Shown: in pieces, positions 24,314 to 27,831 of the stretch
Layout: each line of letters opens with the position of its first letter
How positions within the stretch are numbered: position 1 is the stretch's first letter
Assembly (NCBI RefSeq): GCF_900176325.1
Contig: NZ_FWXK01000004.1
Coordinates: 1 to 64,000 of the forward strand
Source of the DNA: Aerococcus suis
Lineage (GTDB): Bacteria > Bacillota > Bacilli > Lactobacillales > Aerococcaceae
Length of the DNA: 64,000 bases
Direction of reading: 5' to 3'
The notes under the pieces: model-generated
Databases searched by the model: none
Told to the model about the DNA's origin: nothing
Seen by the model: the letters and a program-made list of their open reading frames with translations, nothing else
Made by a program: the position numbers and the translations under genes

Positions 24314-25579
24314 TTATTCTTCAATTAATTCAATCTCAGCACCTAGAGCATGCAATTTATCTGTTACATGATCATAACCGCGTAAGATATTTTCTGCTCC
24401 ATATAATTCAGTCACACCATCTGCAATTAAAGCCGCATTAATTAGACAAGCTCCTGCACGAAGGTCTGAGGCCCGTACTGTTGCACCAATTAGATGATTT
24501 GGCCCCTCCATCATAATATGGTCATTTTTTACTTGAGCATTTGCTCCCATCAACTGTAGCTCAGGAATATGATTGACACGTTTCGGATAAATTGTATCTT
24601 CAATCATTCCTTTACCTTCAGCTAACAACAATAATGGCGTGATAGGTTGTTGTAAGTCAGTCGCAAAACCTGGGTAAGGCATCGTTTTAATATCGACCAT
24701 TTTTAAAGGTTTCGTCGTAGGATGAACGTAAATTGCATCTTGTTCGATTGTCATATCAACGCCCATTTCACGTAACTTCGCTACAAAACTTTCGATATGT
24801 TCATAAATAACATTATTAATACGGACACCGTCACCCATAGCAGCAGCTGCCGTTAAGTATGTTCCCGCTTCAATACGATCAGGAATCATTTGATGACTCA
24901 CACCATGCAACTCATCAACTCCCTCAACGCGAATAGTTGACGTTCCGGCACCTTTGATTTTAGCGCCCATTTTATTTAATAATACAGCCACATCAATAAT
25001 TTCTGGTTCACGAGCCGCATTTTCAATAACAGTTTCACCTTTAGCTTGTGTTGCTGCTAATAAAATATTAATCGTTGCTCCAACACTAACAACGTCTAGA
25101 TAGATAGTCGTATCACCTTGTAAACCATTATCTGAAGTGGTTAAATGGATGGCTCCTTCTTCATTTTTAACAGTTGCACCTAGTGCTTCAAATCCTTTGA
25201 TATGTAAATCCATAGGACGAGGTCCTAATGAACAACCACCAGGTAACCCAACAACACCTTCGCCGTATTTACTTAATAAGGCTCCCATAAAATAATAAGA
25301 GGCTCTTAAACTTTGAATCTTCCCATCTGGCATAGGAATATTTTGCATATGTGTTGGATCAATTTTTAAAACATTTTCTTGGAAGAAAACGTCACACCCA
25401 AAATCACGCAAAATTTCAATTAGTGCGCGTACATCTTGGATATCAGGCACTCCTTCTAAGACAACTTCAGAGTCAGCCATAATAGCTGCTGGAATTAAAG
25501 CAACCGCACTATTTTTGGCACCACTGACTTCAACTTCACCCGATAAGCGATGTCCACCTTTGATTACAAACTTTTTCAT
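24314..25579 (-). CDS. murA: UDP-N-acetylglucosamine 1-carboxyvinyltransferase
   Basis: 421 residues. It transfers enolpyruvyl from PEP to UDP-GlcNAc, the first committed step of peptidoglycan synthesis. The active-site loop [11 protein letters not shown] has Cys116, the residue alkylated by fosfomycin; the N-terminus has the [14 protein letters not shown] motif. Firmicutes often carry two MurA paralogues. The position next to rho matches the second copy (MurAB/MurZ) of B. subtilis. Confidence 0.95.
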
Positions 25580-25789: not shown

Positions 25790-25922
25790 GGGTGTGAAGA
25801 AAGGATGCGATAAAGCACGTTTAACCACGGTCGTTGGACCTAAAAGCGATACCTCTCTGCAAGAGAGAAGGAGCTCTTTAGGGAAACGCAGCCGTGGTTG
25901 TGCTTTAGAGCTCGACTACAAA
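25790..25922 (+). repeat. Tandem structured element, unit 1
   Basis: 133-bp non-coding unit that opens with GGGTGTGA (25790-25797) and closes with CGACTA (25913-25918). A long helix pairs AAAGCAC and CCACGG (25812-25830) with CCGTGG and GTGCTTT (25892-25906). A nested hairpin pairs CTCTCT with AGAGAG (25853-25867). The strand is nominal; nothing shows which strand is transcribed. Confidence 0.7.
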
Positions 25923-26043
25923 GCGTGTGAAGAAACGCGCTCTGATTCGAACATCTGGAAGAAAAAGCCCAAGTTTCGCTTTTTGAAACGGTTGATTTTT
26001 CTGAAGAGGCTTCGAATCAGCGTTTCTGAACCCGACTAAAACA
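25923..26043 (+). repeat. Tandem structured element, unit 2
   Basis: Opens with GCGTGTGA (25923-25930) and closes with CCCGACTA (26031-26038). Its long helix is AAACGC and CTGATTCGAA (25933-25951) with TTCGAATCAG and GCGTTT (26011-26025). The helix sequence differs from unit 1 while the position is the same. Confidence 0.7.
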
Positions 26044-26165
26044 GGGTGTGAGTAGCCCGTTTAGACTTGACTTCTTGGAGACATTTAACCGGAGTTTGTG
26101 AAACAAACAGAGGGTAAATGCGAAAGAACGTCAAGTCTGGCGATACGAACCCAACTAGGGTGTGA
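26044..26165 (+). repeat. Tandem structured element, unit 3, and start of a partial fourth unit
   Basis: Opens with GGGTGTGA (26044-26051) and closes with CCCAACTA (26150-26157). Its helix is AGACTTGAC (26063-26071) with GTCAAGTCT (26130-26138), again a different sequence. A further GGGTGTGA at 26158-26165 starts a fourth unit that breaks off before the terminator of the glycosyltransferase gene. Confidence 0.7.
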
Positions 26166-26185
26166 GCATTTGCGATAAATTTTGA

Positions 26186-26232
26186 AATAAAAAAAGTATT
26201 GGAGAAATTTTCTAGTCTTTTCCACCAACACT
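26186..26232 (-). terminator. Terminator of the glycosyltransferase gene
   Basis: On the minus strand AGTGTTGGTGGAAA pairs imperfectly with TTTCTCCAATACT, followed by TTTTTTTATTTC. The stem resembles the fba terminator at 27902-27948. Confidence 0.7.
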
Positions 26233-26274
26233 CTTTTATATAAATATGACAATAACATCTTAAATGATTCAAAA

Positions 26275-27831
26275 TCACGAAACGAAATAAATATTAAAAT
26301 AAGAATGAGTATATAGTTTTTTGCAATTATTAAATTTCGTGTTCTCTAGAATATCATTTTCAACACTTTCTGAATCATTATTTTTTTCAACAAATAGTAC
26401 AAATTCATTTTCTTTACTTAATTTATCATCATTATACAAACCTGAAACACCAGAAAAATCTATCTGTTTAAACTGATTAAATTCGATTAACTCATTTATC
26501 TGAGATTTTGTTTTAAACGTTTTATCAGTTATAACAACTGCTTTATTAAGATTCAAATTTTCAATTTTTTGATGATTTGAACTCATTTCAGGATACAAAT
26601 ATTCAATTTTATCAGTCTCAGTAAAACCAAGCATTACTATAGTTCCCACTAAAAACATTAATACTGAACTTACCAATACCTCATTTTTTAATAGACTTGT
26701 AAATACAAACTGAGACAAAATTAATACCACAAGAATAAACATAGGGGTTATAGCAAAAATATAACGTGATGTTTGATATGGAGATACCTGGCTTATTAGA
26801 AAGAAACTAAGACAAGTTGGAATTAAAATTAAAATAAATTGTTCTAGTTTAAAAAAATCAACTTGCTTTCTATTAAATATATATAATATTGAAATTATAA
26901 TTAATAAAAAGAGCAAAACAAACACTATTACTTTCCCATATCCAGCAAAAGTATTAGCGTTTATTATATCAAGATAATCTTTAAATTTTTCTTCTGATAG
27001 CCCTCCAAGTAATCCACCTACTACTTGCTCACCTCTATTGGACCCCTTAACATGGTCAAATACACTTGGAAAAATATAAAATGCAGTAAATACTGATAAT
27101 AGTGAAGTTAGGCTATAATAAATAGCATACTTAATTTTTTTTAAACTAATTAAAATTACAGCTACACATATCGTTACAAAAACAGCATAAAGATAAAAAT
27201 AGTATTGAGTTAGTCCTCCAGCAATCGTTGTCAAAGCAGTAATTATAAGATATTTTACATGATTATTATCTTCTACATATTTTAAGGAAACATATAGTAG
27301 AAGCAACTGAATAGCTGTTAACAGAAAGTACATTCTAATAAAAACAAAATTATCAATTGTTGAAATACTCAAGCCGAACATAATAACTGTAATATAACCA
27401 ATAATTTTATTATTAGTAAAAATACTTATGATTTTATATACAACAATAGCTGAAATAATAAAAGAGAGCAGATTCACTGATAATCCTATCCATTTATTAT
27501 ATGTTCCAATAAATAAAGAAGAAAGGGTATGAATAATAGAATAATATAATGGTGGGTGAACGTCTTGAGATTGATTATAAAATACAGACCCGTATTCAAA
27601 AGCAGTATTTGATTGGGTAGCTACCATGTCATAAAGATATGAGGTAGGCAACCACTCGTCAACACGGTTTAATTTTATATTATAATAGCTATTAGATAGT
27701 AAATATGATGAAACCTCATCTACATGCATTCCACCTTTTAATGTTCCCATCCAAATCAAAAATATAGATATAACTGCGATAATCAAAATTAAAAGCCAAT
27801 TATTTCGACATAATTTTTTTATTTTCCCCAC
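26275..27831 (-). CDS. GT-C type membrane glycosyltransferase (GT39-like)
   Basis: 518 residues with a basic N-terminus and 11-13 predicted membrane segments. The first outside loop has the acidic motif GGMHVDEVSSYLL (about residues 33-45), and DVHPPLYYSI is near residue 90. Both are typical of polyprenyl-phosphate-sugar-dependent GT-C enzymes such as PMT and ArnT. A soluble domain of about 100 residues ends the protein. It probably adds a sugar to a cell-surface molecule from a lipid-linked donor; the acceptor is unknown. The gene is more AT-rich than its neighbours. It sits alone between fba and murA, a place where relatives have core genes, suggesting acquisition. Confidence 0.75.
   Translation of the reverse strand: MGKIKKLCRNNWLLILIIAVISIFLIWMGTLKGGMHVDEVSSYLLSNSYYNIKLNRVDEWLPTSYLYDMVATQSNTAFEYGSVFYNQSQDVHPPLYYSIIHTLSSLFIGTYNKWIGLSVNLLSFIISAIVVYKIISIFTNNKIIGYITVIMFGLSISTIDNFVFIRMYFLLTAIQLLLLYVSLKYVEDNNHVKYLIITALTTIAGGLTQYYFYLYAVFVTICVAVILISLKKIKYAIYYSLTSLLSVFTAFYIFPSVFDHVKGSNRGEQVVGGLLGGLSEEKFKDYLDIINANTFAGYGKVIVFVLLFLLIIISILYIFNRKQVDFFKLEQFILILIPTCLSFFLISQVSPYQTSRYIFAITPMFILVVLILSQFVFTSLLKNEVLVSSVLMFLVGTIVMLGFTETDKIEYLYPEMSSNHQKIENLNLNKAVVITDKTFKTKSQINELIEFNQFKQIDFSGVSGLYNDDKLSKENEFVLFVEKNNDSESVENDILENTKFNNCKKLYTHSYFNIYFVS

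Follow-up and report, generated by a model that had tools for sequence, protein, structure and literature searches.

The window, the whole 64,000-nucleotide stretch of Aerococcus suis DNA that was analysed, carries an array of structured repeats between two open reading frames that are both read from the minus strand. On one side is murA (24314..25579, minus strand), which was recognised by a match to the EPSP_synthase family; the array lies upstream of this gene and antisense to it. On the other side is a 518-aa ORF (26275..27831, minus strand) that had been described earlier as a glycosyltransferase, and for which no Pfam match was found. By eye, a terminator-like hairpin followed by a T run (26190..26236, minus strand) lies 3′ of this ORF. 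The original prediction held that three head-to-tail units and the start of a fourth occupy the spacer, and that each unit contains a long helix of differing sequence. Both statements are borne out, the former by the sequence and by matches to a covariance model, the latter by the predicted folds and the same model matches.

All parts of the array read on the plus strand. It opens with a truncated copy of 13 nt, GGGTGTGAAGAAA (25790..25802), which is identical to the beginning of AGAAACGC-type units and represents the first 13 nt of a unit of unit B's type. Unit A (25803..25918; covariance model score 91.4 bits, E 2.3e-22) is made up of GGATGCGA, an outer stem TAAAGCAC:GTGCTTTA, the bulge GTTT and an inner stem AACCACGG:CCGTGGTT, after which come the UGGA-GAA internal loop and then the tail GAGCTCGACTA. 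A 4-nt spacer, CAAA (25919..25922), leads to unit B (25923..26038; 92.3 bits, E 1.3e-22), which is laid out as GCGTGTGA, the outer stem AGAAACGC:GCGTTTCT, the bulge GCTC, the inner stem TGATTCGA:TCGAATCA and the tail GAACCCGACTA. Following a 5-nt spacer, AAACA (26039..26043), unit C (26044..26157; 77.2 bits, E 1.4e-18) starts with GGGTGTGA, contains the inner stem AGACTTGAC and closes with the tail GAACCCAACTA; its outer stem is one base short relative to the model. A 3′-truncated fourth unit of 19 nt, GGGTGTGAGCATTTGCGAT (about 26158..26176), abuts unit C with zero spacer and matches the start of CATTTGC-type units. An 81-codon frame also spans units A and B and is taken as incidental.

The three full units measure 116, 116 and 114 bp. 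Of the lengths first proposed (133, 121 and 114 bp), only the last stands, and the earlier unit 1 was too long because the 13-nt front fragment had been merged with the full unit A. Common unit ends had been claimed as well, and by eye these are GGGTGTGA and RACTA. The ends are indeed shared, but unit 1 starts at 25803 with GGATGCGA and not at 25790. In unit A, the ends GGATGCGA and GAGCTCGACTA replace GGGTGTGA and GAACCCGACTA as a paired variant. Shuffle z-scores of the folds, computed with the unit limits given earlier, were -4.5, -3.4 and -5.1 for the plus strands of the three units and -5.0, -1.75 and -4.6 for their minus strands. The short motif GNGTGTGA alone was not enriched in the window (7 matches against a chance mean of 4.79; 22 of 100 shuffles had as many). 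What goes beyond chance is the fold together with the genome-wide family, rather than GNGTGTGA by itself.

A repeat family defined by its fold

The strand that begins with GGG folds into one long interrupted hairpin in a unit of about 115 bp. At the base of the hairpin is a foot of 2+2 bp with a bulged T, followed by a G-A/G-A step and an 8-bp outer stem. The outer stem is separated by a 4-nt bulge (GNNN) from an inner stem of 8 bp, above which a UGGA/GAA internal loop leads on to one more stem and the loop; the tail, RACTA, is unpaired. When a hand-written structure was applied to 22 units, 91.7% of 660 cells were paired and 193 were changed on both sides. The covariation score of this alignment was 0.766, compared with at most 0.180 for slid controls, and none of 500 shuffles attained any of the five observed values. 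Similar figures were obtained when the model was used to collect 58 distinct rows from another 20 stretches, of which 15 belong to other genera (91.5% paired, 549 cells changed on both sides, covariation 0.772, slid controls at most 0.144), in an alignment that was fitted to the structure and leans to the model. In this alignment, 10 of 500 shuffles attained the observed value for further pair types, which is one of the five measures.

The unit ends covary too, with GGGTGTGA...GAACCC in some units replaced by GGATGCGA...GAGCTC in others. A K-turn-like foot and internal loop was considered but discarded, since the foot covaries as expected for 2+2 bp with a bulged T. In a check for the terminal inverted repeats of MITEs, the ends were found to pair only as this foot, ahead of the outer stem. 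The stems were then counted in 258 distinct units. As with the end, spacer, stop-codon and turnover figures below, these counts come from a strict end pattern, which misses units with other ends, applied to collected loci from an uneven sample of genomes. All eight outer pairs were present in 149 of the 258 units and all eight inner pairs in 162, and the stems with seven or eight pairs comprised 47 outer and 53 inner sequences. In a set of 120 units, 23 outer and 38 inner types occurred in 62 combinations. Mispairs in the stems of the 258 units were G-T in 64 cases versus A-C in 26, which points to the strand starting with GGG as the more likely of the two to fold. Taken together, the covariation, the variety of the stems and the 58-row alignment support the earlier proposal of selection on a single-strand fold.

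The units are not confined to the window. The pattern GNGTGTGA N92-120 CNACTA matched the A. suis genome 26 times, versus 4 times for the reversed pattern; one of the 26 matches, L001, lacks the stems common to the others and was put down to chance. With a covariance model derived from 22 units that came from several genomes, at least 39 copies were found in this genome; the refuting outcome named in the original prediction, a genome search without further units, did not occur. Within the genus Aerococcus, the model was matched in 11 of 15 genomes. Copy numbers were at least 31 to at least 103 in nine of these genomes and at least 150 in G003 and G004, all of them floors, since no more than 150 of 231 to 841 candidates per genome were scored. 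Genomes G001, G007, G008 and G009 had zero model copies among the candidates scored.

Broader surveys of the order and the class scored 12 candidates per genome under stricter filters than the genus survey. Across the order, at least 65 of 295 genomes and at least 28 of 75 genera matched the model, in agreement with the original suggestion that similar boxes occur in other Lactobacillales. In a draw from the class, matches were found in at least 9 of 299 genomes, of which two belong to the genus and seven lie outside the order; the best E-values of these seven range from 1.7e-8 to 1.4e-5. One genome outside the order, G416, has a tandem array in which the same GCGTTTAG...CTGC core can be seen by eye. 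With four loci outside the order inspected, it seems probable that such elements arose before the order did. The strict unit pattern was absent from five stretches of unrelated organisms (of 74), namely Acidilobaceae, Prevotella, Geofilum and two cyanobacteria.

When the window and 17 loci were searched with the 4227 models of Rfam 15, no unit was matched at the gathering cut-off, and the earlier statement that no named family was known therefore holds for this database. Elsewhere in these sequences, one THF riboswitch was found in L177, off the units, and below the cut-off there were two snoRNA matches far under threshold. A literature search, for which most subscription papers were outside reach, brought up no description that we recognised as this family. 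The units form a real and widespread repeat family that is defined by its fold and has no Rfam match. Small bacterial repeats have usually been found through sequence identity, and a search of that kind would miss a family kept by its fold, or would split it into many 'different' repeats.

Ends, insertion sites and turnover of the units

Near-identical units (at most 4 mismatches) at different places have the stretch from GGG to ACTA in common, and their two flanks mostly differ at once; GGG and ACTA are also the limits of the search pattern in this comparison. This does not apply to G010 copies that lie within a larger repeat, nor to one pair from G006 and G014 that looks orthologous. The possibility that the spacer travels with the unit was rejected, as most near-identical pairs differ in spacer on both sides. 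An A immediately precedes the unit in 251 of 252 cases. Successive units are separated by 0-6 nt, most commonly by 4 nt (78 of 172 spacers), and 171 of the 172 spacers are empty or end in A. Among 850 differences between close copies, 72 fall at position 18, which lies in the bulge, and 50 at position -5. The idea that the NNN of the bulge acts as a guide matching the target was not upheld, the best mutual-information z-score among 48 position pairs being 4.1, a small effect.

Identical 5-nt flanks were found in 8 of 214 units (0.8 expected) and identical 4-nt flanks in 13 (5.1 expected). This excess suggests that some insertions may duplicate their target or may come from tandem duplication. 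On the same count, 5-bp target duplication was rejected as a rule, and the units have no duplication of fixed length, a feature of classical MITEs.

Many arrays are placed directly behind open reading frames. When same-strand open frames of 80 codons or more were considered, a stop codon was found at most 10 nt ahead of 52 of 97 array starts. The stops ahead of these 52 arrays are TAA in 45 cases and TAG in 7, and never TGA. Since TGA makes up 60 of 500 stops of frames of at least 150 codons in Aerococcus loci, its absence from all 52 has a chance of 0.0013; these counts use mechanical frames and not annotated genes. The other 45 array starts, including that of the window's array, have no detected stop within 10 nt. 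In an antisense control, which considered the ends of opposite-strand frames at the 3′ side of the 97 arrays, none lay within 10 nt, 2 lay at 11-30 nt and 11 at 31-100 nt, although this control is weak because truncated copies pad the 3′ ends of arrays. By eye, some units of other genera directly follow TAA.

A second element type, GAGTGYGA...GAACACGTTTTGATTA and its variants, has the same skeleton as the units described so far (the first type). First-type units are found inside second-type elements, where they lie in antisense and follow CCACTTCA, or CCATTTCA in the case of A. tenax. The 4-nt spacers at these nested insertions differ: HMSC062A02 has TGCA, A. tenax has CACA, and G010 has both CACA and TACA. 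Compared by eye with second-type copies without an insertion, no target is duplicated, except possibly a single A. The excess of identical 5-nt flanks is the main observation that speaks against this. The empty sites used in this comparison are other copies of the second element and not clean orthologous sites, and the best candidate for an orthologous empty site (G010 versus A. tenax) looks like a deletion remnant.

The turnover of arrays was assessed between two related species, G003 and Aerococcus sp. HMSC062A02, by comparing 13 pairs of orthologous arrays with flanks 82-97% identical; units with N were excluded. For at least 5 of 31 G003 units, the orthologous array contains a unit that matches at 90% or above; this number is a lower bound because 6 of the 13 HMSC062A02 arrays contain assembly gaps. 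A match of this quality elsewhere among the 106 HMSC062A02 units was found for 30 of the 31, and 27 of the 31 match better elsewhere than in the orthologous array, the pool of units elsewhere being larger than any single array. Recombination between arrays, rather than transposition, could be the source of the changed content. Differences were also seen in A. tenax, which at one site has the second element type 3′ of the stop where HMSC062A02 has the first type, and at another site carries neither. The spacer upstream of murA in A. tenax (L227:41660-42433) carries a unit oriented as in the window, beside pieces of the second type. With a unit upstream of murA in this species as well, the site may be used repeatedly.

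Carriage of the units by phages was rejected as a candidate, the first-type pattern having no exact match in viral contigs; a search with one unit of another genus also gave no phage match. Two units of another genus gave one plasmid match, in A. tenax, but the genes of the matching record show it to be chromosomal. The A. tenax UMB3669 record CP127381.1 (591 kb; L224-L228) is labelled a plasmid, yet it carries dnaA, gyrA, gyrB and ribosomal protein operons and thus looks like a piece of chromosome.

Mobility and possible mechanisms

Mobility of the units is well supported by the turnover of arrays and by the nested insertions. We consider it fairly probable that the array in the window consists of copies of a non-autonomous mobile element of about 115 bp that is defined by its fold and not by its sequence. 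Of the three options set out in the original prediction, the mobile hairpin is the one favoured by the nested insertions, the unit limits and the turnover.

In the mechanism whose cut-and-join details we infer here, an enzyme acting in trans would bind the folded strand, either as single-stranded DNA or as RNA, and would cut a few bases 5′ of GGG and directly after ACTA. The unit would be joined after a YA dinucleotide, for example the TA at the start of TAA or TAG, with no regular target duplication, and the stop codon could be re-formed by the first inserted base. Because the terminal ACTA of each unit would supply a fresh TA target, units might accumulate in tandem. More tentatively, these elements may belong to a class of mobile elements in Bacilli for which the fold is the identity while most stem pairs can change in step, with the folded strand recognised by an enzyme and inserted in sense behind the TA of a stop codon, and in which ACTA would drive self-extending arrays of fast turnover. 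The family provides natural evidence for fold-based recognition, and possibly for a new insertion mechanism aimed at stop codons.

Several other explanations were weighed against mobility of this kind. The units could be functional 3′-UTR or small-RNA modules, such as mRNA stabilisers, processing sites or sponges, that selection keeps in transcripts and that have spread only as a by-product of recombination. Lying in sense behind stops in 52 of 97 cases, such units would be part of the gene's transcript; it is also the sense strand that more likely folds, and the fold is found in at least 28 of 75 genera. However, orthologous genes mostly have different units, with the second type or none in A. 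tenax, and units occur in antisense inside other repeats. Moreover, the window's array has no detected sense gene ahead of it, and the genomes of one genus contain anywhere between 0 and at least 150 copies. We therefore regard this explanation as unlikely, and the small RNA of the original prediction keeps a minor share of the probability with it. A different possibility is that the fold is recognised in site-specific recombination, as in integron attC arrays, by a tyrosine recombinase other than IntI. A conserved fold with free sequence, tandem arrays at fixed sites and changed array content are all consistent with this. All 15 genomes gave matches to the integrase model below its threshold, such as other tyrosine recombinases would produce, but carriers and non-carriers were alike in this. 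None of the 15 genomes has an integron integrase over the TIGR02249 cut-off, the arrays that were read have no cassette genes between units, and we consider recombination of this type quite improbable.

Enzymes of two other kinds showed an uneven distribution among the 15 Aerococcus genomes. The Y1_Tnp domain (PF01797) is present in five (G000, G005, G006, G013 and G014), all carriers, and in 0 of 4 non-carriers. This would suit REP-like or IS200/IS605-derived single-strand DNA elements moved by a Y1 (HUH) transposase, as would a bulged hairpin beside a conserved short tail, the lack of regular target duplication and the resemblance of the tail to the target. With the Pfam model, PF01797 was nevertheless not found in carriers G002, G003, G004, G010, G011 and G012, which bear 45 to at least 150 copies, and such an origin seems very unlikely to us. 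RVT_1 is likewise present in five of the 15 genomes, all carriers, and in 0 of 4 non-carriers. That the unit RNA is reverse-transcribed and then inserted would agree with this and with the sense orientation, the A-rich variable 5′ spacer and the lack of regular target duplication. Against it, RVT_1 was not found in six carriers (G000, G002, G011, G012, G013 and G014), and the reverse transcriptase of G003 (L220:499-2253), which has a relative in HMSC062A02, matches a PADLOC defence model, RT-Toprim_I-C, which we take to be a retron class. We regard a retroelement as very unlikely too.

Neither PF01797 nor RVT_1 was found in carriers G002, G011 and G012. The IS110 DEDD transposase occurs in only 2 of 15 genomes, carrier G014 and non-carrier G001. 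Y1 transposase, RVT_1, integron integrase and IS110 were all rejected as required mobilisers, as they do not fit all carriers. None of the four is a general mobiliser, although loss of an enzyme after past activity may apply.

Related repeats

Fold-bearing repeats are known from other bacteria. EFAR of E. faecalis is a structured intergenic repeat with a two-hairpin L-shape. REP/BIME sequences with TnpA-REP (RAYT) are short hairpins in many copies, each with a short conserved sequence beside the hairpin. The units resemble them as multi-copy hairpins with a short conserved adjoining sequence, but no Y1 transposase was found in six carriers, and at about 115 nt our units have a far longer hairpin. 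Integron attC arrays conserve their fold while the sequence varies, and are tandem with changing content. These properties are shared by the arrays described here, which differ from attC in having no integrase over the cut-off, no cassette genes in the arrays read and an orientation behind stop codons. On the features tested, the units do not fit REP elements, integron arrays or classical MITEs.

Three repeats of Lactobacillales are also comparable. BOX of Streptococcus pneumoniae consists of boxA, boxB and boxC, and has terminal inverted repeats and target duplications (PMC3049150). Like our units, it is small, high in copy number, intergenic, strongly folded, modular and variable, and it occurs in Lactobacillales (PMC3049150). 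In contrast, the units found here are single rods of about 115 nt with variable stems, arranged in tandem, with a RACTA tail and no regular target duplication. RUP of S. pneumoniae, at about 107 bp and with 110 copies in the genome studied, is similar in length, intergenic position and abundance, but has terminal inverted repeats and target duplications (PMC3049150). Efa-1 of Enterococcus faecalis, a repeat of 163 nt, is a structured intergenic repeat from the same order; its description as a pair of adjacent stem-loops (PMC2267715), a different fold, sets our units apart from it.

Two further repeats were noticed by eye near the units. A second tandem hairpin repeat, shorter at about 45 bp (ACCCACAATCAAAG...GAGTGTGGATTGA), directly follows several arrays of G003 and HMSC062A02 (L064, L065, L069, L082). 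An insert of about 57 nt, TACGCATACTATATCTGTAACTCGCT..., is present in second-type units, beside the CTGGAG loop, in L217, L227 (the murA-rpoE spacer) and L228.
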